A DNA stretch of 64,000 nt, taken from the NCBI RefSeq assembly GCF_000016125.1, contig NC_009135.1, positions 558,001-622,000 of the forward strand, given 5' to 3'. The notes beneath the pieces were generated by a model. The model was not told the origin of the DNA. It did no database searches and saw only the letters and a list, made by a program, of their open reading frames with translations. The stretch is from Methanococcus maripaludis C5. Lineage in GTDB: Archaea; AGJL01; Methanococci; Methanococcales; Methanococcaceae. Both the position numbers and the translations under genes were made by a program. This document shows, piece after piece, positions 1,365 through 61,792 of the stretch; within the stretch, counting starts at the first letter, position 1, and the number at the start of each line of letters is the position of its first letter.

Positions 1365-1429
1365 TATCCTAATAATCTATTTTAAAAGGAATTACCAACT
1401 AAATTATTTTTAAAAATTTAAAAAGTTAT

Positions 1430-3242: not shown

Positions 3243-3395
3243 TTTTAATTCACCCCTGTGTTTACAATTAGTTTTATTCCCTTATTACTATTTAAAATTA
3301 ATTAAAAAACGATTATAACACTTTAATACTTTAATAACCGGTTTATAACGATATTCATTATTATTGTCTTAAAATGTAGATTTAATTTACACTTT

Positions 3396-43023: not shown

Positions 43024-43102
43024 GATGACTAAACAGTTTACGACAATTACAAAAAAACTAAATTTATGATAAATTACAAAAATATTTCAGAGGGATGGGA
43101 TG
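43024..43102 (+). pseudogene. decayed 3' end of an integrase-coupled small gene
   Basis: The frame VYDNYKKTKFMINYKNISEG immediately before the integrase at 43100 aligns with the end of the 80-aa gene at 40607-40849 (IYEKYGKATNLMVNYAIIAEG). No start or upstream part is left; the region 42942-43020 is unreadable. It shows that the small gene plus integrase unit was once present twice. Confidence 0.6.
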
Positions 43103-44492: not shown

Positions 44493-44545
44493 CGCAGAGG
44501 GAGGGATTTGAACCCCCGCTCCCCAGTGGAGAACCGGATTTCAAG
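44493..44545 (-). repeat. attachment-site copy: 3' part of tRNA-Ser(UGA), central
   Basis: 53 bp identical to the tRNA-Ser 3' end from the base next to the acceptor through the T arm and variable arm to TTTCAAG in the anticodon loop (44539-44545). It breaks off 4 nt earlier than the left copy at 7946-8004, suggesting the crossover lies at the anticodon loop. It is the junction between the left island and the 17-kb element. Confidence 0.88.
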
Positions 44546-44706
44546 GCATTAATTGGAAATAATTGCATTATTTCATTAACGCAGTTAGTAAATGTGTTTA
44601 AAATGTTATGCACTTGGCGTTGACTGGCGCTAATAACGGTAATACTCTTTTTAACAAACAATTTACAGTTATTCGGTAAATAAACGCTTTTACGGTCACG
44701 CTCAAG

Positions 44707-44727
44707 GGTCCGATTTAGTGGATGCCA
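44707..44727. repeat. 21-bp direct repeat, left copy (second at 61650-61670)
   Basis: GGTCCGATTTAGTGGATGCC plus A is present here and at 61650-61670, i.e. just inside both ends of the 17-kb element, in the same orientation. It could be an arm-type binding site for the integrase at 44780-45745. No copy was seen near 8000. Confidence 0.75.
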
Positions 44728-44779
44728 TATGCTCAAACGACAATTTTGTTCACAAGGTGTTAACTGTTGATGACTATAC

Positions 44780-45745
44780 TTATAATATCTTTGAAATCTT
44801 ATCGAGCATTTTATTTTTACGTTCTGTAGAATGCGAGTAAATCATTGTAGTTTCTATTGATGTATGTCCAAGATATTCCTTTACAACATCTAGCGGAACG
44901 CCTTTATCGAGTAAATTTACTGCTCGACCATGTCTAAGCGAGTGTAAGACAAGCCACTTGTTTTCAGGGACACTACCTTCGCGCTTTAACTCGTTTACAA
45001 TACCCACAAATTTTTCACCTAATTGGCGTTTATTGATTATCCCGTCATAAGCGGATTTAAACAAGTAATCATCGGGCCCTTGGTCACCTTGATGTTGTAA
45101 ATAATAGTTTAGTAGTTTTAACGTTTCTTTTGAACAAACCACAGTTCTTTCACGTTTTGTTTTTGTGTTGGTGAGTTTGAACACACCTTTTTTAAGATCA
45201 CACGCAGAATATGTTAATTCAGCAACTTCAGATACTCTACAACCTGTATCCCACAATAATCGAAGAAATGTGGCATCACGTATTTTTGTCGATCCTTTCA
45301 TTCCAATTAACTTTTCGAGGATCATGTTTAGCGTTTCTTCGTCAATAGCATCGTAATGTCTAATTTCATGTTTGGTAAATCGCTTTCGCTCTTTACTTTC
45401 CACTAAAAAGTCATTGAAGTTTTTGTATTTCATGATCCTGTAAAACACAGTGAGCAACTTGAAGTACTTGTTTATGGTTGTATCTTTGCACTTCCGATCA
45501 TGCCTCAAGTGGTTAAAAAACGCAACGTAGTCTTTATTGTCTGTGGTATCAACGGTTTTGTTTAAAGTGTAATATATGTAGTTCAAATAGACTTTAAGCC
45601 GTTGACTGTCGTTTTTAATTGTTCGTTCCTTTAATCCATCAAAACGACGCTGTATTGTAAACTCTTTATCGATTTTATCAATTTCAAGTTTCTTGTAGTC
45701 GATTTTTTCTTCTGATTCGTCCGATTTACTTTTAATAAGTATCAT
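44780..45745 (-). CDS. tyrosine recombinase of the 17-kb element
   Basis: A 321-aa integrase closely related to the 43100-44101 enzyme: RLLWDTGCRVSEVAELTYSA (Arg), HSLRHGRAVNLLDKG (HxxR) and YLGHTSIETTMIYSHST (His and Tyr nucleophile), C-terminus RKNKMLDKISKIL. The N-terminal core-binding domain (KEFTIQRRFDGLKERTIKND) is complete. It is transcribed towards the central att copy, 234 bp away. Its gene is intact, not split by integration as in SSV-type elements, so the att site is outside the gene. The start is ATG 45745; upstream AAAGGTGGT at about 45768 is too far to be sure. Confidence 0.9.
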   Translation of the reverse strand: MILIKSKSDESEEKIDYKKLEIDKIDKEFTIQRRFDGLKERTIKNDSQRLKVYLNYIYYTLNKTVDTTDNKDYVAFFNHLRHDRKCKDTTINKYFKLLTVFYRIMKYKNFNDFLVESKERKRFTKHEIRHYDAIDEETLNMILEKLIGMKGSTKIRDATFLRLLWDTGCRVSEVAELTYSACDLKKGVFKLTNTKTKRERTVVCSKETLKLLNYYLQHQGDQGPDDYLFKSAYDGIINKRQLGEKFVGIVNELKREGSVPENKWLVLHSLRHGRAVNLLDKGVPLDVVKEYLGHTSIETTMIYSHSTERKNKMLDKISKIL

Positions 45746-46103
45746 GTCATGTATATCGTCGATTTTACCACCTTTGCGTAATTTTGGTACTTTATCATAT
45801 CAATAAAAGCACCATGAATGTTGAAATCATCAAAATATCACCAAATATTGCATTGTGTAATTCATGTAAAATATGTGAAAATCGGTTTTGGCACGATTAT
45901 GCAAATCTTTCAGATTTGCCAGTGCGCTGATCAATAAATTTGTGAGAAAAATAGATTTACAGTAACAATTATCTTAAATTTAACAACGCAGGTTCAACGA
46001 CGATTGGCCGGATTTAGCGTATTTAGAACATCATGGTTAAAATAATGTCAAAAATGTATGTTTAAGGTTATACGCACAAGTAACATTTTATTGGCAAGTT
46101 TTC
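45746..46103. other. gap between integrase and tandem array
   Basis: No gene. Contains one copy of the 29-nt hairpin motif (45899-45927, listed with the other two). The rest is ordinary AT-rich sequence with the integrase promoter expected near 45750-45850. Confidence 0.4.
45899..45927 (-). repeat. 29-nt hairpin motif, copy 1 of 3
   Basis: On the minus strand: GCGCACTGGC followed by AAATCTGAAAGATTTGCAT. GCAAATCT and AGATTTGC form an 8-bp stem with loop GAA. The same motif is at 57453-57481 and 57755-57783 on the plus strand. The copies therefore face each other across most of the 17-kb element. Confidence 0.8.
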
Positions 46104-46631
46104 AATCAGTATGACCGAAATGTAAAATCAGTATGACTAAATTATTTCATCCTACCAAATTGTGAATTTCATCCTACCAATATAATTGGTATGACCAAAA
46201 TACAAAATCGGTATGACTGAATAAATTCGGTATTACCAAAATACAAAATCGGTATGACTGAATAAATTCGGTATTACCAAAATACAAAATCGGTATGACT
46301 GAATAAATTCGGTATTACCAAAATACAAAATCGGTATGACTGAATAAATTCGGTATTACCAAAATACAAAATCGGTATGACTGAATAAATTCGGTATTAC
46401 CAAAATACAAAATCGGTATGACTGAATAAATTCGGTATTACCAAAATACAAAATCGGTATGACTGAATAAATTCGGTATTACCAAAATACAAAATCGGTA
46501 TGACTGAATAAATTCAGTAACACTGAATCACGAATTCGGTATGACTAAATCGTGAAAACATGAACTTGGTCTAATTCGGTATGACCAAAATACAAAATCG
46601 GTATGACTAAATTATTTCATCCTACCAAATT
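46104..46631. repeat. 41-bp tandem (iteron-like) array
   Basis: Seven exact 41-bp units start at 46209, 46250, 46291, 46332, 46373, 46414 and 46455, each with CGGTATGACTGAATAAATTC followed by GGTATTACCAAAATACAAAA and T. Each unit has two related boxes, GGTATGACT and GGTATTACC (the latter a GGTA/TACC dyad). The array is flanked on both sides by a 33-bp variant unit (46129-46161 and 46599-46631) containing GTATGACTAAATTATTTCAT and then CCTACCAAATT. There are no unique spacers and no cas genes. It is best read as an origin/partition iteron cluster or a repressor-binding array of the element. Confidence 0.9.
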
Positions 46632-46881
46632 AAATCCGTAAAATGGATTCCCCAATTTAGTATGAAGAATTTACGAGCATTATCGTTGACACAAATTGAA
46701 ATTATGAACTTGACAAATGATGCATTAAAACGGTTAATGACTTTATTAGTTTTATATTTCCATAAATATCCAACCAATACAGAATACATTCCGTTACAGT
46801 AATTAAATAATATTCGGCAGTTATACGTTAATTACAGAGATTATAAATACCCATATTGTTAAACAATAAAATGTGATTATA

Positions 46882-47079
46882 ATGGTTCAAGCGAAAGATG
46901 TTATTGATGCATTGCTTAAAATAATGCCTGAGTTGACACAAGATGATGCTGTAAAATTATATGAAAATAGCAGCGTACCTAGTTTATTAACTGATAAACT
47001 TGTTCGGGAACATGGCGATGATGAAGAATTGGCTAAAACAGTTTTAGTCGAAAACAAACTTTATGAAAACTGCAGATAA
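46882..47079 (+). CDS. small acidic helical protein next to the iteron array
   Basis: A 65-68-aa protein (VQAKDVIDALLKIMPELTQD DAVKLYENSSVPSLLTDKLV REHGDDEELAKTVLVENKLY). All-helical, no family recognised. The start may be GTG 46873 or ATG 46882; no clear RBS. It is the first gene after the array and may be a maintenance or regulatory factor, by position only. 47080-47320 has no gene. Confidence 0.5.
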   Translation: MVQAKDVIDALLKIMPELTQDDAVKLYENSSVPSLLTDKLVREHGDDEELAKTVLVENKLYENCR

Positions 47080-47320
47080 AATTGATTAATTAATAATATC
47101 GACATTTTTTAATTTTTAAGCGAAATAGCGATAGCTAACAATACAATTGTGTAATTTACATAATACTGTTATTATTCCGACCTTACATTTTAACGGCAGA
47201 TAACAGCAATAATAAATATTGTCGATAGGATAGTAATGTAAGTCATAAAATAATAACCATATATTTTCTGAAAATGCAACCAATAAATTGAATTTACGCA
47301 AAATGGGGAACGGGGTATAT

Positions 47321-48385
47321 ATGTATAGCATTAAAGATAATCAAGCAACGAAAATTGAAAGGGTTACTTTTTCGGACTTAAAAATGACTGAAAACGATAT
47401 TGAAGAGATTTTAAGATGTAACATCAACATGTTGTGTGATGAAGAAGAATCACTACTTATTGTTGGAAGACAAGTTAAAAACGAGAAAAACGGTCGAAGT
47501 GATCTTACTGCAGTAGACAACAACGGAAACATTGTTTTAATTGAAATTAAGCGAGATAAAAAAGACATTGAAAACCGTAAAGAAGCGTTTGAGTTTCAGG
47601 CAATTCGATATGCTGCAAGCTATGCTAAAATTGAAAGTCCAGATGAGTTAGTTAAACTTGTTTACGCACCGTATATTGAAAAGTACAAGGGTGAATTTGA
47701 AATCGGTGAACTCACATCATATGAATTAGGTATTCGTAAACTTAACAAATTTTTGGAAGCAAACGATGTTATTAATTTTAACGAAAAGCAGAGAATAATT
47801 CTTGCAGCAGGCGAATACGACGAACAGACACTTTCTGCAGTAGCTTGGTTGAATAAAAATAGTGTTGATATGGGTTGTTATAAATTAACACCGTATCCAA
47901 TTAACGGTGAAACAATTATAAAAGCTGAAAAAGTACTGCCGCTTGCAAAATACACGGATTATTATGTTAATTTAATGGATAATACCACCCGTTATGTTTC
48001 GAAACGCGAAAAAGCAATTACGAGAAGAGTTTTACCCAAAATAGAAGACATGCTTTTATGGGGTGCTGTTAAAGCTGGTGACATAATAAAAGCAAAAGAT
48101 TATGGGGCTGAAGCGGTCCTCTTAAAAAATGGAAATGTATTGGCCGCCCCTACCAAAATTTTAAAAATTGAACGTTTATCAGCAGATGATAAGAGCATAC
48201 CAATGCAAAACGGTGTCGCTACTGAAATGTCAATGCAAACGTGGCTTAAGGATGTTTACGGATGGTCAAGTATCCAGACATACAATTTCGCAGTCCATAA
48301 AGAAAGTGGTAAAACATTATCGCAGATCCGTGAAGAGTATATGGAAAAACTAGCGAAAGAAACAGACGATACCGTCGATCAATAA
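47321..48385 (+). CDS. PD-(D/E)XK nuclease-like protein, possibly with a RAMA-like C-terminus
   Basis: A 354-aa protein from the ATG at 47321, which follows ACGGGG (an upstream TTG at 47288 lacks an RBS). Residues about 50-90 carry a nuclease core: NGRSDLTAVDNNGNIVLIEIKRDKKD (D...E-x-K) as in NucS/DUF91-like and other restriction-type folds, followed by AFEFQAIRYAASYAKIE. The C-terminal 110 residues (WGAVKAGDIIKAKDYGAEAV LLKNGNVLAAPTK, MQTWLKDVYGWSSIQTYNFA) resemble a RAMA-type domain associated with restriction enzymes and adenine methylases; this part of the call is weaker. It may sense and cut modified or foreign DNA. It precedes a second EVE gene and a type I RM system. Confidence 0.65.
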   Translation: MYSIKDNQATKIERVTFSDLKMTENDIEEILRCNINMLCDEEESLLIVGRQVKNEKNGRSDLTAVDNNGNIVLIEIKRDKKDIENRKEAFEFQAIRYAASYAKIESPDELVKLVYAPYIEKYKGEFEIGELTSYELGIRKLNKFLEANDVINFNEKQRIILAAGEYDEQTLSAVAWLNKNSVDMGCYKLTPYPINGETIIKAEKVLPLAKYTDYYVNLMDNTTRYVSKREKAITRRVLPKIEDMLLWGAVKAGDIIKAKDYGAEAVLLKNGNVLAAPTKILKIERLSADDKSIPMQNGVATEMSMQTWLKDVYGWSSIQTYNFAVHKESGKTLSQIREEYMEKLAKETDDTVDQ

Positions 48386-48591
48386 TCATTTACGTTGTGT
48401 AGCGGTTTACTTTTGGGCAATATACAAACGCTGCTATCCTCTTTTTTACAATTTTTAATTTTACCTGTATTTTGAATGTGTTCGACCTACGTTTTCGCCC
48501 ACAATGCTGCATTTTTACAGATTAATTCGAAAGTTCTAAAAATGATATTAACAGAAAATTATAGTAATTGCTTAAAAATCGGGTGGTTATT

Positions 48592-49029
48592 CTGACAAAT
48601 TACTTCATGTGTATCACAAACGAAGAAAACTGGAACGTTGTAAAGGACAAAAAAGTCTGGGGCGTTTCTGAAATGTACAAAAACACGATCGCTAAGGTTG
48701 AAAAGGGCGACATGCTGTTAATTTACGAAATGGGCAAAAACGGCAAAGAGCCAAAACCACAATATGTTCGTGGACTTTACGAAGTTACCTCAGAAGTTAA
48801 AACAGATAATAAACGAATATTTGGGATACACCCAAATAGACCAAATGAAACATACCCTTTAAGGCTTAAATTAAAAGAAATCGAAGTGTTTGAGTCGCCA
48901 ATTTTATTTAAACCGCTCGTAAACAGCCTCGAATTTATAAAAAACAAAAAACAGTGGTCAGGTTCACTTAGACGTGCAATGGTTCCTTTAAACGAATCCG
49001 ACTTTAACACCATTTTAAATAGTAAATAA
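48592..49029 (+). CDS. EVE-domain (PUA-like) protein, second copy
   Basis: About 145 aa, closely similar to the protein at 18952-19392: NYFMCITNEENWNVVKDKKVWGV, AKVEKGDMLLIYEMGKNGKE, FIKNKKQWSGSLRRAMVPLN. Homology indicates the start near the CTG at 48592 (TNYFMCIT), 6-7 nt after GGGTGG; an upstream TTG (48568) gives eight extra non-conserved residues. The family reads modified bases by a PUA-like pocket. It lies opposite the small gene at 49034 and the second hsd operon. The 186 bp before it contain no gene. Confidence 0.8.
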   Translation: MTNYFMCITNEENWNVVKDKKVWGVSEMYKNTIAKVEKGDMLLIYEMGKNGKEPKPQYVRGLYEVTSEVKTDNKRIFGIHPNRPNETYPLRLKLKEIEVFESPILFKPLVNSLEFIKNKKQWSGSLRRAMVPLNESDFNTILNSK

Positions 49030-49033
49030 TAGG

Positions 49034-49243
49034 TTAATAGTCGTAAACTGGTTCTTTTCGAGGTATGAAAACGACACCACCATGAATTTTAAACAATTCA
49101 TCCCATTTCTTCTTGTCTGCAAGTCGTCGATCAAGTTCATCGAGATAATCCAATAATTTCAGGATTGTTTCGTAATCATTATTTTCGTAAGCCCTTTCTA
49201 GTTTTTTAGCCCAGTAATTGTCTAGTGCTTCTTCGTAATTCAT
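49034..49243 (-). CDS. 69-aa protein, end of the second hsd region
   Basis: Acidic, helical: NYEEALDNYWAKKLERAYEN NDYETILKLLDYLDELDRRL ADKKKWDELFKIHGGVVFIP. The pattern resembles small helical repeats but no family is assigned. RBS GAGGCATAAA-like before the ATG. It is on the same strand as hsdR, 225 bp downstream of it, and converges with the EVE gene (4 bp apart). Confidence 0.5.
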   Translation of the reverse strand: MNYEEALDNYWAKKLERAYENNDYETILKLLDYLDELDRRLADKKKWDELFKIHGGVVFIPRKEPVYDY

Positions 49244-49468
49244 ATTTTATGCCTCGTTTTTCATTTTTGACTATAATTACATCCGTATTGCCAATATTAT
49301 ATATACTTTAATTAATCGATACGTGTAGATCAACAAATATCTGTTTGTAAATGCTAAAAAAGGATAATTTATGTGCAATTAACAATTATCAAAAAAGTAA
49401 AGAGTGAATGTAGTTGTTAGGCGTTAGTAGATACGCCCATCTGAAACAAATGCTGCAACGTGCTAATG
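49244..49468. other. short gap downstream of the second hsdR
   Basis: 225 bp, no gene seen. Contains AATATTATATATACTTTAAT (about 49291-49311), a TATA-like block for the 69-aa gene. Confidence 0.4.
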
Positions 49469-52400
49469 TTACCGGTTTCTGTAATTTCGGTATACTTGTC
49501 GTGCCATTTCTTGCTGTATTGTGTTGTAAAAAGTTCTGTTTTCAAAGATCTTTTTAAAAGAATTCGATTGTTCTAAGAAGCAGCTGCGAGTGGCTTTATC
49601 GAAGAGTTCTGGGAAGAAACTATCGTTAAATATCTCAAACGAATCTTTCGTGTACTGTTCAAGTTTTTCACTGTCGTTTAGTAGTTTTCCGTAGATTGTT
49701 TTAACCATGACCTTGTCACCATCGCTAAACTCGCCTTCGTAAACTTCATTGATCTTTGAGATTATTGCATCTAGCAATTCATCGTTACCAGTTACTCCGA
49801 TTACATTATCAATTGTTTTAGGATTTGTAAGCATTGCGCAGTCGTCCTTAGTTTCAAGACTGATATCGCCTTCGAAAGTTTTGCTGAGCTTGTAGTATTC
49901 GAGTTTGATTTTATCCTCGAGGTCGATCTTTTCAGCTGAGTTTTTAGGCAGCATTTTTTCGAGATATTGCAAGAAGCGATATTCCTTCTGTAAATCCTTA
50001 TCGAACATTCTTTCAATTTGTGTGATGTACGAATACCATTTTATAAAGTTTCTGACCGCTTTTTTAAACTTGAACTGATCTTCTTCGCTAATTTCGGAAT
50101 ACACCCTAATTATCGGCAGGAACATACTCGTGATTTTACCGTGAGCAGTATTTGACTGCGCACCTGATTTATAGTAAATCTTGGTACTTTTCTCAACATC
50201 GTCATCATTGTATATTCTGAAATTTCTAAGAAGCGCTTTTGTATCATAAATTAAATTAACATTGATTTCTTCGTCAAGGGCGGTTTCTTTGTAGTATGGT
50301 GCAAATGAAAGTAATATGTCTTCTGAATTGTTCACAAAGTCGAGTATAAATGTATCGTTTTTATAAGGGGCGGTTCTGTTAAGTCTTGAAAGTGTTTGAA
50401 CAGCTTTAACACCATTAAGCTTCTTGTCAACAAACATCGTGTGTAATAAAGGTTCATCAAAGCCTGTCTGATACTTTTCAGCAACTATCAGCATGTTAAA
50501 TTCGTCCCCGTGAAATACCTGTGGGAGCTGCTTTTCACTTATTTTATTACCTGATTTTGTTACATTCATTCCACTTTCAGTATATTCTTCGTCTCCGTCT
50601 TTTACGGTTCCAGAAAATGCTATAAGAACATCAAGATCGTTGTATCCTTTATTTTTAATGTATTTCTTAAATTCTTTGTAATATCTAACTGCGTGAAGTC
50701 TTGATGGTGTTATAATCATTGCTTTTGCTTGACCATTGATTTTTTTGGAAGTGATTTCACGGAAGTACTCAACCATAACTGATGTTTTTTGCTGTAAGTT
50801 ATATGGGTGCAGTGATTCGTAACGCCTGATAGCCCTTTTTGCTTCACTTTCTGGTAATTCAGGATTATCAGGTATGTTTTTAGCGATTTTAAAGCATGTT
50901 TTATAAGTCATGTAATTTTTAAGCACATCAAGAATGAATCCTTCTTCGATTGCCTGTTTCATCGAATATATGTGGAATGGGTGGAATGAACCATCAGTGC
51001 ATCGATTTCCAAACATTTCTAATGTTTTTTGTTTTGGTGTTGCAGTAAATGCGAAAAATGATAAATTTTGGTGTCGCCCGTGTGTACTTAACTCACTTAC
51101 CAGCTTATCTTCGAAATCTTCAGAAGCTTCTTCAGCTTCACCCTCAATTTTAGCATATTCTTCAAGTGCATCTTTGTTATCTGCAAGTGCAATCTTTAAT
51201 TTCTGTGCACTCGTTCCAGTCTGACTGGAATGCGCTTCGTCAACAATTACAGCGAATCGTTTACCCTTATTGTTTTCTACATCTTCATAGATTACAGGGA
51301 ATTTTTGAAGTGTTGTAACGATAATCTTTTTACCATCGTTAATTGCGTTTTTCAAATCTTGAGATGTTTTTTTATCCCCTATTGTTTCAACGAGGCCGTA
51401 AGTGTGGTCGAAACCAGATATTGTATCTTGAAGCTGACTGTCAAGCACTTTCCTATCGGTTACAACGATAACTGAATTGAATATGCTGTTATTATCCTCA
51501 TCGTGAAGACTTGCAAGTCTGTAAGCAATCCATGCGATACTGTTACTTTTGCCTGATCCTGCTGAATGCTGAATCAAGTAATTACATCCAGATCCGTGCT
51601 GTTTTACGTTGTTTACAAGCTTTGTTACAACATCGAGCTGGTGATAACGAGGAAATATTAACTTTTGACTGATTTTTGTAGTTTCACGTCCGTTTTTAAC
51701 TACTTTTTTCTTTTCAACGTTTATATGGAGGAATCTGTGTATGATGTTCATCAGTGAATCTTTCGTCAATACCTGCTCCCAGAGGTATGATGTAGCATAT
51801 CCGTCTTTGTTTTCAGGATTACCTGCACCACCGACCTGTCCAGCTCCGCCAGAACCCTGGTTAAATGGTAAAAACATAGTGTTTGGTCCGGCTAATTTTG
51901 TAGTCATTGCTACTTCATGCAAATCAACAGCAAAATATGCTAAAAATCGTTTGTTAAACTGGAAGCATGGCTCTCGAGGGTTTCTATCGTACATGAACTG
52001 TTTTTTACCGTTTTCGATAGATTGACCAGTAATCTGGTTTTTAAGCTCTAGCGCAACTATCGGAATACCATTAAGCGATAAAACCATATCAATTGTATTT
52101 TTGTTTTCCGTTGAGTATGCAAACTGTCGTGTAACTGTTAATATGTTATTTTCGTATTTTTTCACGAGTTCATGGTTTAAATTTGATTCGGGTTTAAAGT
52201 AGCATAGCTTTAACTTAACACCCCTATCAGCAATGCCCTTTCTAAGTGAATACAGTAGTCCTTGCGCATTGACAGAATCATTGAATCGCTTGAATAGATT
52301 GTTTTCTGCTTCATCCCCATAAATGCGTACATACCGATCCCATTCCTTTTCTTGTGTTGTTTTGATGAATTCAACAAGTTTTGATAAATCTATTCCACGT

Positions 52401-52498
52401 TCCGCACTGTAGCTAGACTTATCGCCTTTGATATACCCACCATTAGTTAGCATTGACTCTTCAATGTCCTGTTCAAATCGCTTTTCTGTGTATTCCAA
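49469..52498 (-). CDS. hsdR: type I restriction endonuclease/translocase subunit, second system
   Basis: A 1009-aa HsdR, unlike the first (different subfamily). N-terminal nuclease: MVLSLNGIPIVALELKNQIT (D...ELK; about residues 137-160). SF2 motor: Walker A IQHSAGSGKSNSIAWIAYRL (about 310-325), VIVVTDRKVLDSQLQD, DEAH-type AVIVDEAHSSQTG (about 420), FFAFTATPKQKTLEMFG, MLIVAEKYQTGFDEPLLHTM and AVQTLSRLNRTAPYK. C-terminal helical region complete. Encoded downstream of hsdS by 25 bp on the same strand, order M-S-R. Restricts unmodified DNA as part of the type I complex. Confidence 0.93.
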   Translation of the reverse strand: MEYTEKRFEQDIEESMLTNGGYIKGDKSSYSAERGIDLSKLVEFIKTTQEKEWDRYVRIYGDEAENNLFKRFNDSVNAQGLLYSLRKGIADRGVKLKLCYFKPESNLNHELVKKYENNILTVTRQFAYSTENKNTIDMVLSLNGIPIVALELKNQITGQSIENGKKQFMYDRNPREPCFQFNKRFLAYFAVDLHEVAMTTKLAGPNTMFLPFNQGSGGAGQVGGAGNPENKDGYATSYLWEQVLTKDSLMNIIHRFLHINVEKKKVVKNGRETTKISQKLIFPRYHQLDVVTKLVNNVKQHGSGCNYLIQHSAGSGKSNSIAWIAYRLASLHDEDNNSIFNSVIVVTDRKVLDSQLQDTISGFDHTYGLVETIGDKKTSQDLKNAINDGKKIIVTTLQKFPVIYEDVENNKGKRFAVIVDEAHSSQTGTSAQKLKIALADNKDALEEYAKIEGEAEEASEDFEDKLVSELSTHGRHQNLSFFAFTATPKQKTLEMFGNRCTDGSFHPFHIYSMKQAIEEGFILDVLKNYMTYKTCFKIAKNIPDNPELPESEAKRAIRRYESLHPYNLQQKTSVMVEYFREITSKKINGQAKAMIITPSRLHAVRYYKEFKKYIKNKGYNDLDVLIAFSGTVKDGDEEYTESGMNVTKSGNKISEKQLPQVFHGDEFNMLIVAEKYQTGFDEPLLHTMFVDKKLNGVKAVQTLSRLNRTAPYKNDTFILDFVNNSEDILLSFAPYYKETALDEEINVNLIYDTKALLRNFRIYNDDDVEKSTKIYYKSGAQSNTAHGKITSMFLPIIRVYSEISEEDQFKFKKAVRNFIKWYSYITQIERMFDKDLQKEYRFLQYLEKMLPKNSAEKIDLEDKIKLEYYKLSKTFEGDISLETKDDCAMLTNPKTIDNVIGVTGNDELLDAIISKINEVYEGEFSDGDKVMVKTIYGKLLNDSEKLEQYTKDSFEIFNDSFFPELFDKATRSCFLEQSNSFKKIFENRTFYNTIQQEMARQVYRNYRNR

Positions 52499-52523
52499 GT
52501 TTTAACGCCCCCGCTCGTTATCG

Positions 52524-53888
52524 TTATTTAACTTCCTTCTTACCAGTAACTACTTCGTAAATTAGTGATTTCTTGTATGCTTTGAGTTCTGTGATTAATT
52601 GTTGTTTTTTGGTGATTAATTGATCTATGGTTTGACATGTTTCTTCAATAAATTTACCAATAGCGATTTGTTCGTTATGCGGCGGCACAAGAACCGGTAA
52701 TTTTTTAAGCAATTCCTGGCTTAACGAAGCTCTTGTTACTAAATTCATTTCTTTAACGAAGAATCGCCTATGCATATCACTTCTAAAATAATATTTTGAA
52801 TATAATGGATTCAATAATTTCGAATCAAACGGTCTGAACCTAATTAAAAATCCTGCAAAAACTGCATCATTCATGGTATGCATACATGTAGCGGTGAATC
52901 CAATTTCATCAATGGTTTCAGAAGTTCGCGTAAAGAAAACATCGCCGTATTCAACGGAATAATTCGATTTATCAAATTCATTCGATTCTACCAATCCTTC
53001 AACGGATTTTGGAAGTTCATAGTTTTTATAAACGTCTCCGTAACTAACAAAAGGATAACCCGAACCGAAATAACTTGAACTTTTACTAATCCCATTTTGC
53101 AACGTTCCCAGATACCGAATTTTTATAATATCCCAGTGTTCAGGAATATCGCCGATCCATTCAATACCGCTATCTTTCATCGTTACAGTTGGATCGAGTC
53201 CTTTAGTCACGGTTTCCGTTATAATTGACTGTTTGTAACTTTTGTATTCATCAATTGACGATTTGGTTTTCTCGATAATGCTGTCGATTTGGCCAACTTT
53301 ATCATCGAGGTACTGTGCAATTTCTTGTTGCTCATCAACGGGCGGTAAAATGAGTGAAATTGATTTTAAAATTTTCTGAGTAATGCTATATACCTTAATT
53401 CCGACTACGCGTTTTTGTATTTGACTTTTTATATCTGGCGATTTTAACAAATAACCCAAATACGTCGAGTTTACATTAATGAGGGGCCTGCCCAAAATCG
53501 TGTGTGAACCTGCAAATATTGGTTTATTATTGCTTTCACGGATAAATAAACAATTACCACTACCTTCAATATCTTCTGACGTGTCACAGAATATAAAATC
53601 GCCTTCAGAAGCTATTGCAGATGGATTAGTGTCGATAAACTCCACTGGAACTTTTGGTAAGTTATCCCTTGACGATACAATATCAAATGTGTATTTTGAG
53701 TGGATATCGCCATAATTTACACAATCAACTCCGTTTTCGACGAGTTCTGCTTTCGTGATACTTAACCCCGTATTTAGGCCCAATATATATTTCAACTTCT
53801 TTACGCCCCAATCCGCAGGAATATCGCCGATCCACTCGATACCACTATCTTTCATCGCACGAGCCATGTTATTCACCGTCTTTACCAA
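52524..53888 (-). CDS. hsdS: type I restriction specificity subunit, second system
   Basis: A 454-aa HsdS with two halves, each starting with the same phrase: MKDSGIEWIGDIPADWGVKK (about residue 13) and MKDSGIEWIGDIPEHWDIIK (about 235). Each TRD is followed by a conserved coiled coil: LPPVDEQQEIAQYLDDKVGQ IDSIIEKTKSSIDEYKSYKQ and VPPHNEQIAIGKFIEETCQT IDQLITKKQQLITELKAYKK. This is the archetype of a bipartite specificity subunit with two TRDs. Its start overlaps the hsdM end by 20 nt, so the genes are coupled. Specificity is unpredictable from sequence. Confidence 0.93.
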   Translation of the reverse strand: MVKTVNNMARAMKDSGIEWIGDIPADWGVKKLKYILGLNTGLSITKAELVENGVDCVNYGDIHSKYTFDIVSSRDNLPKVPVEFIDTNPSAIASEGDFIFCDTSEDIEGSGNCLFIRESNNKPIFAGSHTILGRPLINVNSTYLGYLLKSPDIKSQIQKRVVGIKVYSITQKILKSISLILPPVDEQQEIAQYLDDKVGQIDSIIEKTKSSIDEYKSYKQSIITETVTKGLDPTVTMKDSGIEWIGDIPEHWDIIKIRYLGTLQNGISKSSSYFGSGYPFVSYGDVYKNYELPKSVEGLVESNEFDKSNYSVEYGDVFFTRTSETIDEIGFTATCMHTMNDAVFAGFLIRFRPFDSKLLNPLYSKYYFRSDMHRRFFVKEMNLVTRASLSQELLKKLPVLVPPHNEQIAIGKFIEETCQTIDQLITKKQQLITELKAYKKSLIYEVVTGKKEVK

Positions 53889-55632
53889 AGAGCGATTTTA
53901 AACTGCCTGTCAATTCAGCTTCAATTACACAGATCCTTTCAGCAACCATATCAGACTTTTCAGGTGCAACGTACTTGTAAAAGTGTCTTGTAAATGGTAT
54001 CTCGTAGCCTATCGTTGTTTTTTTATCATCAATCCACGCTTCAGGGTTGTACGGTAAAACTTCACGCTTAAAATACTCTTCGATATCTTCGGTTAACGGT
54101 ACGTTCTCAGTATCCCGCTTTGACGTATCGGGCGCAGGTTTACCTTTTTTAATTACGATTTTACCTTTTTCGTCCTTCAATGGTGATTCGACAGTAATCT
54201 TGTAGTAACCAAAATCTTCGTTATTAAATACTTTAGATTCAACGGACTTTTCGCCGTAATCGTAGTATTTATCGCTAAATTCACCGTATGCTTTGACAAT
54301 TGCTTCTCTACAATCAGTAGATAAGTCTACTCGCTTGTTACCAATTGATTTTCGTCTTTTTACATACATGTTGGATGCATCGATTAATTGAACTTTACCT
54401 GCTCTTTCATCCGATTTATTTTTTGAAATTAACCAAACATATGTTGTAATTCCCGTGTTGTAGAACAGATCGTTAGGTAACTGAACAATTGCATCTAACC
54501 AGTCGTTTTCAATAATGTATTTCCGAATTTCGGATGGGCCGGAACCTGCATCGCCTGTAAAAAGCGGAGATCCGTTATGGATAATTGCAAGTCTCCCTGT
54601 GTCCTTAAGCTTGCTGATACCATTTAGGGTAAATAACATCTGACCGTCTGATATTTTTGGTAAACCGACACCGAATCTACCTTTTTCAGCGAGTTTATTT
54701 TCTTTGTCGACTGCTTTTTTCTGCGCTTTCCAATCAACACCAAATGGCGGATTTGAAATACAGTAATCAAATGTGTAGCCTTTAAACTGGTCGTTAATAA
54801 GGGTATCGCCAAAACGCATATTGTCGGCTTTTCCACCACGAATTATCATGTCGGCTTTTGCAATTGCAAATGTTTCAGGATTAAATTCCTGGCCGAATAC
54901 ACTGACTTCGATTTTGTTGTCTAATTGCTGTATTCGCTCAGTAAGACAAGTAAGCATCTGTGATGTACCCATGGCCATGTCGTAACATGTTTTTGGACTT
55001 CCATCGAATTCATCTTCAGTTACAAGTAAATCGGTCATTAAATAGATAATATCTCGCGCAGTAAAGTGAGCTCCAGCTTCTTCGTTGTATGACTCAGAAA
55101 ACTTTCGTATAAGCTCTTCGAAAATATAGCCCATATCGGCAGTTGAAATCGCATCAGGTCCCATGTATGAACTTGGCTTGTTAAATTCCTGTATCACGTA
55201 AAACAACTTATCTTCTTCGGGTGTACTACCAACGAGGTCTGAAATGATATGTTCGAACTTGAAATGCTTTATGATATCTTGAATATTGTCTGAAAATCCC
55301 GCAATAAACTTCCTGAAATTTGCTTCGATATGATCAGGATCGTTTAGCAATGTCTCAAAAGTGAACGGACTAGTGTTGTAAAATGGGTAACCTGCAGCTG
55401 ATTCGAGGAAACCTTCCTTAACTTCAAAATCCTTGATTTCTTCGCACGTTTTTAACACTGCATCTTTAGTCGGTAAAAGCGTATCATTTAGCCTTTTTAA
55501 CACCGTCATTGGTAAGATTACTTTCCCGTATTCATGTGGTTTAAAAGTTCCACGAATAATGTCAGCAATGTTCCAGATCATGTTTGCTTTTTCCTGGACA
55601 TTGATGTTGGTCTGATGATACAATGCACTCAT
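53869..55632 (-). CDS. hsdM: type I restriction-modification methyltransferase subunit, second system
   Basis: A 587-aa HsdM. Helical N-terminal domain (MIWNIADIIRGTFKPHEYGK VILPMTVLKRL), then HFTARDIIYLMTDLLV, SAM motif I CYDMAMGTSQMLTCLTERI (about residues 215-230), VFGQEFNPETFAIAKADMII and motif IV FDYCISNPPFGVDWK (NPPF, about 300). Motif I has AMGTSQ where the textbook form is ACGTGG; I believe this is a natural variant in a subfamily, not a defect, because motif IV and the rest are intact. The C-terminus contains an additional domain (VESPLKDEKGKIVIKKGKPA). GAGGGG RBS before the ATG. Confidence 0.9.
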   Translation of the reverse strand: MSALYHQTNINVQEKANMIWNIADIIRGTFKPHEYGKVILPMTVLKRLNDTLLPTKDAVLKTCEEIKDFEVKEGFLESAAGYPFYNTSPFTFETLLNDPDHIEANFRKFIAGFSDNIQDIIKHFKFEHIISDLVGSTPEEDKLFYVIQEFNKPSSYMGPDAISTADMGYIFEELIRKFSESYNEEAGAHFTARDIIYLMTDLLVTEDEFDGSPKTCYDMAMGTSQMLTCLTERIQQLDNKIEVSVFGQEFNPETFAIAKADMIIRGGKADNMRFGDTLINDQFKGYTFDYCISNPPFGVDWKAQKKAVDKENKLAEKGRFGVGLPKISDGQMLFTLNGISKLKDTGRLAIIHNGSPLFTGDAGSGPSEIRKYIIENDWLDAIVQLPNDLFYNTGITTYVWLISKNKSDERAGKVQLIDASNMYVKRRKSIGNKRVDLSTDCREAIVKAYGEFSDKYYDYGEKSVESKVFNNEDFGYYKITVESPLKDEKGKIVIKKGKPAPDTSKRDTENVPLTEDIEEYFKREVLPYNPEAWIDDKKTTIGYEIPFTRHFYKYVAPEKSDMVAERICVIEAELTGSLKSLFGKDGE

Positions 55633-56346
55633 TAAATTCCCCTCGTATTTTCGTAAAGTAATTTATGTTTAGTTTTTCTCGCAATTGTCTGTTTATCGGA
55701 CATTTAATTTCATTACCAACATCTGTATTCGGTTGTGGTAAATCAGGTACTTGTAAATTAAAATTAATCATCGTTAAATATGGTAAAAGAACTGTAATGC
55801 TGATTAAACATGCAGTTTAACTTACTGCTTTGCCTGTCCGCGTATTCTGGGATTATAATGTTGTTTTTATAATTCATACTTATTGAAAGACTTATAAACA
55901 TAACTTATTACGCTATATTCACCCAACATTAAAAACATTGCGATTTTAACTGCACAATAAAGATGATGCAAGGTTATTGAATTGATCGGACAATAAAAAT
56001 AGGCAGTGTTGATAATCAAAAAGACTTTTGAAACACCCAAATTTGGTAGTGCTCAACATGCCTATTCATACGTATTTGCCTGCAATGGTGAATATCTCGA
56101 CAAATTGGATGTTACCGTTTAGTAAATTAAAAAAAGCATTTCGTTTAAATTCAAATTTTTGTAAATGCTTATAAAGAATTGTGTAAATTATTGGGTTTAT
56201 TAAACAGGCGTATTAACCGGTAAGCCACCACGAAGTTCATTTTTATCATTAAATGTATATTTCGCAACAGCAGACGGCCTCGTTACTTTCGCCAAAATGT
56301 AAAAAAGTATGGTTGTTGTAATTGATCTTCAAATAACTTCCGTATC
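55633..56346. other. 714-bp gap upstream of the second hsdM
   Basis: Contains the promoter region of the hsd operon (AT-rich near 55790-55910) and two short frames: a 38-aa plus-strand ORF (56006-56122, listed) and a minus-strand stretch ending at about 56207 that reads ILAKVTRPSAVAKYTFNDKN ELRGGLPVNTPV, in the same frame as the broken gene at 56347-57002 but after two stops. The latter may be a former C-terminal part of that gene. Confidence 0.4.
56006..56122 (+). CDS. candidate 38-aa ORF
   Basis: GTG-initiated frame MLIIKKTFETPKFGSAQHAY then SYVFACNGEYLDKLDVTV, stop TAG at 56120-56122. Codon use looks native, but there is no convincing RBS and no recognised family; it may be a fragment of a lost gene. 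Confidence 0.25.
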   Translation: MLIIKKTFETPKFGSAQHAYSYVFACNGEYLDKLDVTV

Positions 56347-57002
56347 TTAAAAGCTGAGATCATCAAAAATTTCATCAAACATGGACCTTTCAAGTCCCAT
56401 TGTTTTCATTATATTGTCAAGGCTTTCAAAAGTCATGATATTATTATCTGAAAGTGCAATCGACTTAACTTTAGACTTTATGTTGTATTTCGCAACATTT
56501 AACAGTCCATTTTCCCAGCGTTCATGATACAATTGAATCAACTCTGAATTCAACATTCCGATCATCGCAAATCCTTTAACGGGCGTGTATTTTTCTTTCA
56601 TGTATCCAATAATTGGCTGAACTGCCGTTTCAACTGCTTGCTGTTCTTTCGAAAGATCTTTGTTTTCGTCACTAATATTTTTAACAACTTCTGTTGATTT
56701 TGCCCATATCTCCTGACCGTAAATCTCTTTCATTGTATCTGTCGATATCTTTCCATTTCGTATGTCCTCAGCGATTAGTTTACTGACTTCATTCACTGCC
56801 GCTATTGAAGTGTACTGGCTGCCGATAGCAGCACTGTCTTCATAGCCGATAGATCTTATCACGCTGACATTATAAGGATTATTTATGTCGATTCCGAAGT
56901 TCCACCCAACGGGTAATTTCTAGTGGGTATTGAGTATACGTAATTAGTAATAGCTTTGTTTGACGCTTTAATATAATATTCTCGATCTTTAATGTAGGTC
57001 AT
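56347..57002 (-). pseudogene. hypothetical protein of the element, frameshifted near its N-terminus
   Basis: The minus strand starts at ATG 57002 (after CAGGTAAATC) with MTYIKDREYYIKASNKAITN YVYSIPTRNYP. Near 56908-56918 the frame shifts, and the continuing frame reads PVGWNFGIDINNPYNVSVIR SIGYEDSAAIGSQYTSIAAV and runs open to 56347. Joined, this is a ~218-aa mostly helical protein with no recognised family. The alternative is a 171-aa protein from a GTG at 56862, which lacks the coding-like PVGWNFGIDI segment. I favour a frameshift, real or by sequencing. Confidence 0.6.
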
Positions 57003-57269
57003 GATTTACCTGCCGTAACAAATTGCTAATGCGTGTTTAATCTAAATTTGATTTCCAAATGTAAAACGATTAAAATATTATCGTCAATTTGCAATTCATA
57101 CGACAATTGTTACTACTACAGGATATATAACAATTACTGAATCTGTAAAGTATTCATGAGTAAATTTTAAAAGTCCCTTCGTAATCAAAGCAATAATTAT
57201 AATTTTTTTATGGCTCTAGCGCATTTTATCACCCCATTTATAATTCAAATAATTGTTTAAGTACAATAT

Positions 57270-57690
57270 CAACCCCGAAAGGGGGATGTCTATGTGGCTC
57301 TTGTCGAATGAATGTCTATGTTCTGATTTAATCCGTTAAACTCCAAAAAACCCTTTAGGGAATGTCTCGCTATTAATGTCGACCCTGAAAGGGGATGTCT
57401 TTGTCGACTGATTTTATCGAAAAAAGTATGCTAGTTAATTTATATGGTATATGCGCACTGGCAAATCTGAAGGATTTGCATAAGGACTATTAATTTAAAT
57501 ATACGCGGCAATAGTGCCGTAATTAATTAAATATCCAATTCGTAGCAGATGAAATTGTTTAACTGAAACATAGACAGTCATAACAACAATTTAACATAGA
57601 CATTAAGCCCTTTAGGCTTTAACGACAATTTAACATAGACACTAAGCCCTTTAGGGGCTTTGACAACAATGTAACATAGACATTTCCTGA
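57270..57690. repeat. inverted arrays of ATGTCTATGT / ACATAGACAT boxes with short G/C hairpins
   Basis: Left half: ATGTCTATGT-type boxes near 57287, 57312, 57362 and 57395 (two shortened), each by a small palindrome such as ACCCCGAAAGGGGG, CCCTTTAGGG or CCCTGAAAGGGG. Right half: AACATAGACA boxes near 57567, 57592, 57630 and 57674, beside AAGCCCTTTAGG, AAGCCCTTTAGGGGCTT and TTCCTGAAGGAA. The two halves are in opposite orientation around about 57480. Multiple protein-binding boxes plus small stems before a replicative helicase gene suggest an origin. Confidence 0.75.
57453..57481 (+). repeat. 29-nt hairpin motif, copy 2 of 3
   Basis: GCGCACTGGC followed by AAATCTGAAGGATTTGCAT; stem GCAAATC/GATTTGC, loop TGAAG. 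Same family as 45899-45927 (reverse) and 57755-57783. Confidence 0.8.
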
Positions 57691-57754
57691 AGGAACAGGG
57701 TGGTGCATCGTTAGCGCATTTAACATGCAATTAAAAAAATATTCTGATTACAAT

Positions 57755-57783
57755 GCGCACTGGCAAATCTGGAAGATTTGCAT
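57755..57783 (+). repeat. 29-nt hairpin motif, copy 3 of 3
   Basis: GCGCACTGGC followed by AAATCTGGAAGATTTGCAT; stem GCAAATCT/AGATTTGC, loop GGA. The stem is conserved while the loop differs among copies. A partial ATGCACTGGC occurs at about 57813. Confidence 0.8.
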
Positions 57784-58259
57784 AATATACTCTTTAAAAA
57801 AATGTTATTTTTATGCACTGGCCGATACAAAATTTACTGACAGTAGTTATTGTTGCAGTCACCCACAAGTATATATACTATAACGTAACATAGTATAAAC
57901 ATATATTGATATTCTAATATAATAATATAATTAATAATATATCCAGTACGAATGAAGTAACAGTATTATGTACTCTGTTTTTATTAACACGCACTTAGCG
58001 TAGATTTTTAAGTACTAGTTATTATTTTTACAATTTGTTACACCCCAGTTACAGAAATAAAGTAACGGGCGCATATGGTTTAAATCACTATTGACGCTCA
58101 ATACGTGCTTATTTTACTTTCGTTGATATTTTTTTAGTAGGTCTTCTCATTTTTTGAAATATCGCATAATCTTAAGTTGCATTTATATACTATCGAAATT
58201 ACTGGTATTTTGCGGTAAAAAGTATGAAATAAAACACGAAATCGATGAAGAGGCATAAA

Positions 58260-60287
58260 ATGGTCAACGAAAAACAAGCACTGACAGAAACCCTGAAAGA
58301 TCAGATAGTACAGTCATTACTAGACTATCGTGAAAGTCAAAACGATAGTTCTTCAAATCTTAAAGAAGTTTTCCGACACTTTGTTACAAACCATTTAATC
58401 ATTCCGATGACGTCTAAGGATATTACGGACATATTTGGGGGACTTGATGCTAAATCTAACAGTATCAAAGCATACATTACGAATTTTACAAATGATGGAC
58501 TCATTTATAAGGATGATTCAGGGTATTTACACAAATCACAAACCGATATGGCGGACATTGTAGTTTATTTACAAAATAACTACACTGAGCAGTTGAAAAG
58601 TGGTAAAAGTATAATTGTCGACTTTCAGCAAGATTTTAAATCGGACGAGTTTTTATTGGCGCTTTTAAAAAACAATCCGGAGCAGCTTTTCAAAATGTTT
58701 AACGAAGCACTGGTTAAATCGCAAAATTCACTGCAAAAACAGACATTTAATAATATTATTGGTATCGAAAACGTGCCTGATGAATACAAGTGTAATATTG
58801 AAGATATAAATTCAGCTTTGCTCTCCAAAATTGTTGAATTCGAGGGTATTGTATCAATAGCGTCTACAAGAAAAACAGTGCTCAAAAAAGCAGTTTATTC
58901 ATGCAATTGCGGCAATAAAGACGAAAAAGTATTTAACAACGTGATTACAAGCAGCCCTGATAAAATATGTAAATGCGGAAAGAAAATGGAACTTAATGGC
59001 TCAAAGTCGTTATACATTGATATTCAGGAATTCAAGTTGCAGCAACCTGTAGAAACAATGAATAATCCGAAAGAACCGCCAAAATACATGTCAGTGTTTT
59101 TCGAAAACTCGCCAGGCATTTACAGCGGCAAATTAAATATTGTCGGAATACCATTTAAGAAAAAGCAGAAAAACGGACCATTGTATGATATACACGTTTA
59201 TGCCAAATCCGTAGTGCCTGTAGAAGACATTATCGATAATAGGTTGGACGAAAGCAAAATAAAAGATATAAAACGGATTTCAGATTATTGTATCGATAAT
59301 AATATTGATTTACTCGATAAACTGTCCGAATTAGTTGTTCCGACCATTCAGGGTTACGAAAAAGTAAAAAAAGCAATATTGCTGCAACAAATGAAGGGCG
59401 CATACGGATTAACCCGTAATGATTTACACATACTACTTGTTGCAGATCCTGGAGTCGGTAAATCAGAAATACTACGTACAATTTCAAAATTACCTAAAAA
59501 TTTATACGGATCAATTACTGGAACATCTGGTGTTGGATTGACTGCATCTGTTGAGCAGGAAAAAACAACCGTTGGTGATAGCGGCTGGGTAACTAAACCT
59601 GGATTATTGGTCACCAAAAACGGAGGAACTGCGTCACTTGATGAGTTAACTGTAGATAAAGACTTATCGTCCCATTTATTGGAAGCGATGGAGTCTCAAG
59701 AAATACACATCGCAAAAGCAGGGATTAATATAAGCTTGCCTGCAAAAATCGCGATTCTTGCAGCATGTAATCCTAAAAACGGGCGTTGGGATAAGTCCAA
59801 AGGACTAATTGATCAGATCGAATTAACTGAACCTATTTTAGACCGGTTTGATTTAATATTTGATATGAACACGGGCCAAAACAGCGAATTAGATGCTGAA
59901 ATCGCTCGAAAAACAATTCGAAATTATAATAACGGATCTGAAGCTATTGACACTATCGTCGAAACTACCGTAACTATCGGGGAAGACGTAATTAACCGTG
60001 AATTTTTACTTGACTTTATAGAATATGCAAGAACGCTGCAAGTAAAGATTCCAGAAAATATCAATGAGATTATGGTTAATTATTATGTCGCCCATAAGAA
60101 GAAAGACAATAGCAGTTCCGTTAGATTGCTCGAAACACTCATTCGGCTTTCAACAGCATTTGCAAAAGCCAGGCTTGCCACTGAAATTAGTGATCAAGAT
60201 TTTAAAAACGCCTGTGAACTATTTGAATCATCCATAAAAGTTCGAGAAGTTAACGCACCTGTAAAAACCGTTGCTTCGGCCTCATAA
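58260..60287 (+). CDS. mcm: MCM replicative helicase of the integrated element
   Basis: A 675-aa MCM (or 680 from an upstream ATG at 58245; the second ATG has GAAGAGG about 6 nt before it). An N-terminal region of about 180 residues with a winged-helix feel is longer than usual. The zinc-binding part has four Cys (YSCNCGNKDEKVF and KICKCGKKM, about residues 214-245). The AAA+ core: Walker A LLVADPGVGKSEILRT (about 395-408), Walker B GGTASLDELTVDKDLSSHLL EAMESQEIHIAKAG, sensor 1 AILAACNPKNGRWD, arginine finger EPILDRFDLIFD, then a C-terminal winged helix. MCM unwinds DNA at forks; Methanococcales are known to carry extra mcm copies spread by mobile elements. Here the gene sits between the putative origin and the tRNA-proximal end. 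Confidence 0.92.
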   Translation: MVNEKQALTETLKDQIVQSLLDYRESQNDSSSNLKEVFRHFVTNHLIIPMTSKDITDIFGGLDAKSNSIKAYITNFTNDGLIYKDDSGYLHKSQTDMADIVVYLQNNYTEQLKSGKSIIVDFQQDFKSDEFLLALLKNNPEQLFKMFNEALVKSQNSLQKQTFNNIIGIENVPDEYKCNIEDINSALLSKIVEFEGIVSIASTRKTVLKKAVYSCNCGNKDEKVFNNVITSSPDKICKCGKKMELNGSKSLYIDIQEFKLQQPVETMNNPKEPPKYMSVFFENSPGIYSGKLNIVGIPFKKKQKNGPLYDIHVYAKSVVPVEDIIDNRLDESKIKDIKRISDYCIDNNIDLLDKLSELVVPTIQGYEKVKKAILLQQMKGAYGLTRNDLHILLVADPGVGKSEILRTISKLPKNLYGSITGTSGVGLTASVEQEKTTVGDSGWVTKPGLLVTKNGGTASLDELTVDKDLSSHLLEAMESQEIHIAKAGINISLPAKIAILAACNPKNGRWDKSKGLIDQIELTEPILDRFDLIFDMNTGQNSELDAEIARKTIRNYNNGSEAIDTIVETTVTIGEDVINREFLLDFIEYARTLQVKIPENINEIMVNYYVAHKKKDNSSSVRLLETLIRLSTAFAKARLATEISDQDFKNACELFESSIKVREVNAPVKTVASAS

Positions 60288-60584
60288 CGAAGTGTTATGT
60301 TCAAATGGCAATTTACCCCCTTCTTGAACATACCTTTCAATCAGGTAATTTGTTACACGGATCCAGTCAACTCTTTGGCCGAATTCGCCCAAAATGGAAG
60401 ATCGCAGTGAACCAAGTTCAGACATTTCAAATATTGTGCATTCGCTATTAATAAGCAGCATGAGTTCATAGTGGGAAGTGCACTGTGTAATTTTTTCCGA
60501 CCATTCTCCGGAAATGTAACCTTTATTATTTAATGTATCGATTACAAGTTCTGTTAATTTGTAGTTTACTATAATATCATCCAT
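60282..60584 (-). CDS. hypothetical 100-aa protein, convergent with mcm
   Basis: A 100-aa acidic helical protein (DDIIVNYKLTELVIDTLNNK GYISGEWSEKITQCTSHYEL MLLINSECTIFEMSELGSLR SSILGEFGQRVDWIRVTNYL). No family recognised; possible small helical adaptor or wHTH. Its 3' end overlaps the mcm stop by 6 nt on the opposite strand. RBS GGTGTTAAT-like before ATG 60584. Confidence 0.55.
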   Translation of the reverse strand: MDDIIVNYKLTELVIDTLNNKGYISGEWSEKITQCTSHYELMLLINSECTIFEMSELGSLRSSILGEFGQRVDWIRVTNYLIERYVQEGGKLPFEHNTSL

Positions 60585-61705
60585 ATTAACACCATTATTA
60601 CTTTTTTGCCCATAGGACGTTTTTTAATTGTTTTATTTATTATTGTATCGTTATTAACAGTGTGTTTAGCTATTAAGCGTATTTACGCAATCACTGTATT
60701 GATATATTACAAAATTTACCTTACAATAACAATTTACTGTTTGAAAGTACAGTTTGATAACCAAAAGTGATTCGAACGTTTTATACGATATTCATTATTA
60801 TTGTTTTAAACTGTAGCCTATCGAAATCATACTTATTGCATTCTTAAGTTTCGCAGTTTATACTTCAGCTGCTGCGAGCTTTTAATGTGGATACTGTTAA
60901 ATACATTCTTAGTTTGACCAAATGTTGTTTTCAAATTTCCGAAATCATGTGTCCAAAAATTACACACTGTCAATTACTTTTTTTATGTCATGGAAGTGTT
61001 CCGACTAAAGGTGAAGATATACGAATTACCTCTTCAAGTCCTGAATCGATAGGCTATAAACACTAAACATCATATTAAAGGTAATATTGGTAATTTCATG
61101 CAGTATGCTAACGCTATATATACTAAATGGCCACGAATACGCCATTCAATACCAAATAAATGTCCCGTACAAGTACTCTGAGGTACTCATATATATTGTA
61201 AAATAAATTCTAGCGCTTTTAATATGTCTATTGGCAATTTGGTGGATACAATGAAGATAAACGTAAATTATCAGCGTATTAGTGGCGTATTTACCTAGCG
61301 ATTATCAGCGTAATTAACAATAAAAGTGCCGCGGTTTTGAAGCATTTAATTGTGGTTATATGATAATATGGGTTGTTCGGAAAAATTTTTCAAATTTTCA
61401 AAAACTGCGAAAAAAGTAGTGAATGTTCCGTCAATTAAGTGGGGCATGAAGTAAATATTGTCGATATCAACACCTCAATATAGCAGATGGTGGTTGAGGT
61501 TGGCCAATGACGCCGGAGTTGAATTTCGATATTAGTCCTGTACAACATAACTGCGCATCAAGATGCACTGGGACGGTTCAGGATAGCTGTTAAAAAAAGG
61601 TCCTTCGACGTTTAAATTACGTTAATTGTTAATCTGCGTTAAAAAAGCTGGTCCGATTTAGTGGATGCCAACGTTCGTGGCGTTATTTAGCGTTTCAAAA
61701 TGAAG
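60585..61705. other. 1.1-kb gap between the last element gene and the tRNA
   Basis: No gene seen on either strand. Contains the right copy of the 21-bp repeat (61650-61670) and a GC-richer block at about 61475-61590 (see findings). The rest is AT-rich; no remnants of known genes could be read. Confidence 0.5.
61650..61670. repeat. 21-bp direct repeat, right copy
   Basis: Same as 44707-44727 and same orientation, 36 bp outside the tRNA-Ser 3' end. See the left copy for interpretation. Confidence 0.75.
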
Positions 61706-61792
61706 CGCAGAGGGAGGGATTTGAACCCCCGCTCCCCAGTGGAGAACCGGATTTCAAGTCCGGCGCCTTTGGCCAAGCTCAACCACCTCTGC
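61706..61792 (-). tRNA. tRNA-Ser(UGA), intact
   Basis: The minus strand folds into a full type II tRNA of 87 nt: acceptor GCAGAGG/CCTCTGC with discriminator G (C at 61706), D arm GAGCTTGGCCAAAGGC, anticodon stem CCGGA/TCCGG around loop CTTGAAA (anticodon TGA, reads UCA), a long variable arm (TCTCCACTGGGGAG region) and T loop TTCAAAT. No encoded CCA. It is the intact copy at the right border: its 3' part recurs at 44493-44545 and 7946-8004, so it serves as the integration target (attB/attR). Confidence 0.95.

Follow-up and report, generated by a model that had tools for sequence, protein, structure and literature searches.

A candidate replication origin of facing hairpin-and-box units upstream of mcm in an integrated element of Methanococcus maripaludis C5

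We propose that positions 57270-57700 of the window (the whole 64,000-nucleotide stretch of Methanococcus maripaludis C5 DNA analysed here) serve a 17.2 kb integrated element as an initiator-binding region, most probably as its replication origin, and that this region is recognised by the element's own MCM. On the sequence evidence laid out below we hold this reading to be moderately probable. According to it, the element would excise and its MCM would bind facing hairpin-plus-box units via an N-terminal winged-helix-like domain. Such self-binding would replace the Orc1/Cdc6 step, and perhaps also the recruitment role that the C-terminal winged helix has in other MCMs. Two opposed MCM complexes would assemble on the facing arms and unwind either the spacer between them or an AT-rich stretch towards mcm, leading to bidirectional replication.

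The array is located in a 1.24 kb non-coding gap between two divergent genes, 57003 (-) and 58260 (+, mcm). In its left arm all boxes are forward: a CCCCGAAAGGGGG hairpin followed by ATGTCTATGT (57273-57295), a box without a hairpin (57312-57321), a CCCTTTAGGG hairpin with the degenerate box ATGTCTCGCT (57351-57371) and a CCCTGAAAGGGG hairpin with ATGTCTTTGT (57383-57404). A 163-bp spacer (57405-57567) separates them from the right arm, where all boxes are reverse: CTGTCTATGT without a hairpin (57568-57577), a box with a AAGCCCTTTAGGCTT hairpin (57594-57618), the box GTGTCTATGT with a AAGCCCTTTAGGGGCTT hairpin (57633-57659) and a box with a CCTGAAGGAACAGG hairpin (57674-57698). Exact copies of ATGTCTATGT are at 57286+, 57312+, 57594- and 57674-, and copies with one mismatch at 57395+, 57568- and 57633-. 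The first-pass annotation had described four boxes per side, each beside a small G/C stem. The four right-hand boxes stand; on the left there are strictly three (≤1 mismatch), the fourth being the degenerate 57362+ (ATGTCTcgct, three mismatches to ATGTCTATGT), so that the count is 3 + 4 by the strict and 4 + 4 by the loose definition. A GC-rich hairpin lies directly 5' (in box orientation) of six of the eight boxes, giving a unit of GC hairpin and then box, and is missing at 57312+ and 57568-. Five of these hairpins pass a threshold that is reached by 1.5% of window positions. The left-forward/right-reverse ordering alone would be expected in ∼6-11% of random orientations. The spacer itself is not exceptional in composition (AT ∼0.65-0.70) and cannot clearly be recognised as an unwinding element; AT content is higher at 57850-57950, outside the arms.

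The boxes are restricted in their distribution. In pattern searches of the host genome (contigs of 1,780,761 and 8,285 bases), ATGTCTATGT occurred exactly four times in the whole 1.79 Mb, every time in this array, and the reversed control pattern had six genome matches compared to no further copies of ATGTCTATGT beyond the array. The top 10-mer was present in seven copies within 471 bp, while 500 dinucleotide shuffles gave at most four. When the upstream box count was compared among 39 Methanococcales mcm genes, this mcm ranked first (runner-up, five). Thus the facing arrays reported by the first-pass annotation are real, unique in the genome and above all 500 shuffles, and several short boxes adjoining a rep gene (mcm) are what is seen in iteron-type origins. 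The GC-skew minimum also falls at the boxes (57.1 kb), which proves nothing because it coincides with the divergence in gene orientation. Neither a comparison of the array sequence with viral contigs nor one of the intergenic region with plasmids returned a match.

A second repeat, a 33-bp hairpin with the stem GCAAATC/GATTTGC, is present at three genome sites, all of them in the element: inside the spacer (57451-57483, +), at 57753-57785 (+) and at 45897-45927 (-). It was absent from six congeneric genomes; its 7-bp stem is kept and its 5-nt loop varies, and it is possibly a cruciform, primer or recombination site. This pattern of a kept stem and a varying loop, and the strong folding of 57260-57720 as single-stranded DNA (z = -5.2), would also fit a repeat cluster that is selfish or has no function, or a structured RNA. 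Such an origin of the repeats is very improbable in our view: the sole match in an Rfam search was the tRNA, with none for the array, the boxes are conserved in the array as well as the hairpins, and mcm-side repeats recur in sister elements (see below).

Could the boxes instead be operators for the divergent genes 57003 (-) and 58260 (+), bound by a regulator that might be the HTH of the MCM itself? Their position between these genes would suit this role, and initiators often regulate their own gene. Archaeal operators, however, are normally found at the core promoter. The mcm promoter/leader (58175-58259, +) contains a TATA-like element (58182-58189) and a GAGG before the ATG, and the segment 58175-58306 is 77% identical to the related element in genome G016, being the only upstream stretch that we found conserved between the two. 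The closest box is ∼500 bp from this conserved TATA region, a distance that weakens an operator role, and ∼280 bp from the left gene; moreover, eight hairpin units far exceed what an operator would need. We therefore judge the operator explanation to be rather improbable.

The boxes belong to the 17.2 kb integrated element (44493-61758), as the 3' half of tRNA-Ser(TGA) is duplicated exactly over 53 bp at both of its ends: attL (44493-44545) is a copy of the tRNA 3' half and attR (61706-61758) lies within the tRNA-Ser gene (61705-61792, -). This att duplication and a tyrosine integrase (44780-45745, -; Phage_integrase, 9.4e-35) are the hallmarks of a tRNA-integrating element, and the earlier suggestion of a mobile replicon carrying its own mcm is borne out. 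In addition to the integrase, the element carries nuclease-like, EVE-domain, type I restriction-modification and mcm genes, a 41-bp tandem array and a 100-aa ORF (60282-60584, -), which by eye resembles a 98-aa ORF of the G017 element region. After excision, the predicted circle would have mcm on one side of att and int on the other. Related elements are present in genomes G016 and G017, with related int (68-69% identity to the C5 integrase), EVE and mcm genes and an identical tRNA-Ser att sequence; the element in G016 also shares the nuclease gene and that in G017 hsdRSM. Methanococcales elements of the pT26-2 family are similarly located in tRNA-Ser and combine a tyrosine integrase with an MCM replicon (PMC6972569). 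The C5 element differs from them in its genes (restriction-modification, EVE, nuclease), and the conserved membrane/ATPase core of pT26-2 was not seen among its Pfam-scanned ORFs. A survey of that family found the ori close to rep in 12 of 15 elements and no ori consensus conserved among them (PMC6972569).

Several further observations concern the surroundings of the element. Besides the two att copies, a third copy of the tRNA-Ser 3' half is present at 7946-8004, and the 17.2 kb element seems to have a tandem neighbour, a second element of ∼36 kb that carries two more integrases (40846-41889, 43100-44101) and a DEAD-helicase protein of 1268 aa (29109-32915). Just inside the ends of the 17.2 kb element there is a 21-bp exact direct repeat (44707-44727 and 61650-61670), a candidate integrase arm site. 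Next to the tRNA-Ser gene, part of its sequence is repeated in inverted orientation (61489-61523 versus 61753-61787), and a similar copy is found near tRNA-Ser in G016 and G017. The gene divergent from mcm (56347-57003, -) has an apparent frameshift at ∼56.9 kb (ATG at 57003, frame resuming at 56862).

Only one repeat cluster in the window is stronger than the facing boxes, namely the 41-bp tandem array (46179-46519, +; 8.3 copies). It contains ∼20 boxes TCGGTATKAC in direct orientation, spaced about every 20 bp (46.1-46.63 kb), is confined to the element and has a copy of the 33-bp hairpin repeat (45897-45927) beside it. This array, which might be an origin, a centromere or a set of integrase arm sites, is an equally good iteron candidate and the strongest competitor as origin. 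If the array at 46.1-46.6 kb were the replication origin, the facing boxes would be an accessory site bound by the same protein, e.g. a copy-control or incompatibility region. We consider this unlikely, as the tandem array adjoins the integrase and, even when the distance is taken across att in the circular form, is separated from mcm by ∼3 kb; furthermore, the integrase-side tandem array was not found in G016 or G017, whereas mcm-side repeats are present in all three elements. The existence of two separate arrays also allows one of them, perhaps the facing one, to be a partition centromere, and inverted box arrays are commonly centromeres. As no ParA/ParB-like gene was seen among the larger ORFs of the element, a centromere appears quite improbable.

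We now return to the preferred reading, in which the boxes are bound by the element MCM. This 675-aa protein (58260-60287, +) consists of a variable N-terminal wHTH-like domain (aa 20-87) and an MCM core with OB, AAA+ and lid domains (PF00493, 1.4e-60; PF17855; PF17207). We prefer a start at 58260 (MVNEK...), a corrected position, since the G016 relative has kept both the ATG and the upstream GAGG. The protein lacks the C-terminal winged helix of canonical archaeal MCMs: 16 residues follow the lid in C5 and 18 in the G016 element MCM, while all other Methanococcales MCMs sampled have a C-terminal tail of 85-92 aa (one reads on beyond), the exceptions being the C5 and G016 element MCMs and the truncated one of G017. 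In S. islandicus, MCM contacts Cdc6-1 through its C-terminal winged helix (PMC5333045), so its absence here would fit an Orc-independent route. No Orc1/Cdc6 (TIGR02928) scored above the curated cut-off anywhere in the genome, and none of the element ORFs scanned had an Orc1/Cdc6 Pfam match.

The part before the core is 113-118 aa long in the element MCMs compared to 18-40 aa in typical chromosomal MCMs, and among 36 genomes an N-terminal domain of the C5 type was clear only in the C5, G016 and G017 elements. Weak, sub-threshold matches to MCM_C and other HTH families occur, at a shared position, in each of the three homologues. The N-terminal parts also align with the pMEFER01-type N-terminal domain (profile match probability 42%), which is a winged helix (F-93_WHD, 2.5e-5; 1tbx, 5e-4). 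On these sub-threshold matches, the C5-type domain is a probable winged helix. When the N-terminal alignment was searched as a profile against the PDB, no match was significant, and a single-sequence AlphaFold model of the domain had low confidence (pLDDT 53) and was discarded. We do not claim that the N-terminal domain is a relocated C-terminal one, for which hhalign gave a probability of only 18%. Searches of viral contigs with the MCM and with the MCM alignment returned no match, and the only match in a scan of genome contigs was a distant Woesearchaeota MCM.

The first-pass annotation had named a lack of box conservation upstream of related mcm genes as grounds against an origin, and the boxes are indeed not conserved: the C5 box cluster is absent from both sister elements, G016 and G017. 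This loses force because the MCM, too, has changed in its putative DNA-binding part, and because the sister elements share another family of mcm-flanking repeats. Over the MCM core (aa 131-600), identity is 68% for the pair C5-G016 and 61% for G016-G017. In the HTH block (aa 20-87) the order reverses, with 16% identity between C5 and G016 and 44% between G016 and G017. The C5-G016 identity resumes on both sides of the block (74% for aa 1-19, 51% for aa 88-130), and a discordance of this size between core and HTH was reached by none of 100,000 samples of 68 core columns. In the tree, the three element MCMs form one clade (100/100), within which C5 is joined with G016 (98/75). The repeats follow the HTH block. 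G016 and G017 have a common family of ∼100-130 bp repeats, which are direct and lie on both sides of mcm, not in facing arrays upstream; a profile built from the G017 repeats alone finds those of G016 (2.5e-10, 8e-8) and not those of C5 (0.21). Hence the putative DNA-binding domain and the repeats appear to have changed together between C5 and its sisters, which is the pattern that an exchange of a DNA-binding domain with its sites would leave, seen here in three elements only, one of which (G017) has a decayed mcm. Because non-coding DNA diverges fast in any case, the absence from C5 of the repeats shared by its sisters counts only in part as independent evidence. In-frame stops interrupt the G017 mcm (locus L036, 10109-11932) close to its 3' end, and the G017 element is probably decaying.

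Other replicons show similar combinations. Several mobile Methanococcales MCMs, that of pMEFER01 among them, have an N-terminal winged helix and, in most cases, a long upstream non-coding gap; they differ in keeping the C-terminal tail (88-90 aa), in the type of N-terminal domain and in the boxes. Upstream of the mobile mcm genes of pMEFER01, G010 and G032, whose products all bear an N-terminal winged helix, two-orientation boxes are in modest excess and reach five copies (0, 1 and 2 of 60 shuffles, respectively, were as high), and no excess of such boxes was found upstream of the G023 mobile mcm or of the chromosomal mcm genes tested. The 8,285 bp plasmid of the same strain, which we take to be pURB500, has an ORF-free region (L037, 67-395) where ∼10 boxes AATGTTCGAT, some in each orientation, lie beside a wHTH-like ORF. 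It also encodes an 870-aa protein (794-3406, -) with an MCM-type winged helix at its end and no Pfam domain found. Thus pURB500 resembles the C5 element in combining many short two-orientation boxes, in an ORF-free region, with a neighbouring wHTH-like ORF and a large candidate replication protein; it differs in the sequence of its boxes and in that Pfam does not identify the large protein as an MCM.

The C5 array also resembles Orc1/Cdc6-ORB archaeal origins in that inverted boxes are arranged about a spacer beside a replication gene. In contrast to these origins, it has no ORB consensus and no adjoining orc1/cdc6. A likeness of the boxes to the ORB G-string had been suggested earlier; against an ORB-type consensus of 20 nt, the best match had mismatches at 7 of 20 positions, no better than shuffles. 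Of the earlier proposal of a candidate origin, an origin or initiator-binding region therefore remains the best reading, and the ORB resemblance is not supported. A further close parallel comes from the viral and mobile MCMs of Thermococcales, whose N-terminal HTH was proposed in a 2026 preprint to recognise origins (PMC12934983). Both are mobile MCMs with an N-terminal DNA-binding-like domain and without an Orc1/Cdc6 partner, in which origin recognition and helicase are proposed to be combined. The C5-type extension is shorter (113-118 versus ∼200 aa), the C-terminal winged helix is missing in C5, and in C5 candidate cognate sites are visible that change with the domain.

How replication starts in Methanococcales has been described as an open question, as Orc1/Cdc6 is unrecognisable or very divergent and mobile mcm genes are many (PMC3984812, PMC5333045). 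As a tentative extension of our reading, one that we think somewhat more doubtful than not, the element may encode a self-recruiting MCM, which has lost its C-terminal winged helix, carries an N-terminal DNA-binding domain and would load itself at the facing hairpin-plus-box origin without Orc1/Cdc6, the domain and boxes being swapped between elements as a specificity cassette. With a small element, a genetically tractable host and a visible candidate initiator together with its candidate sites, recognition of an origin by MCM itself becomes directly testable. What the C5 element would add to the 2026 Thermococcales proposal is a set of candidate cognate sites, along with a naturally occurring case in which domain and sites have both changed between relatives.
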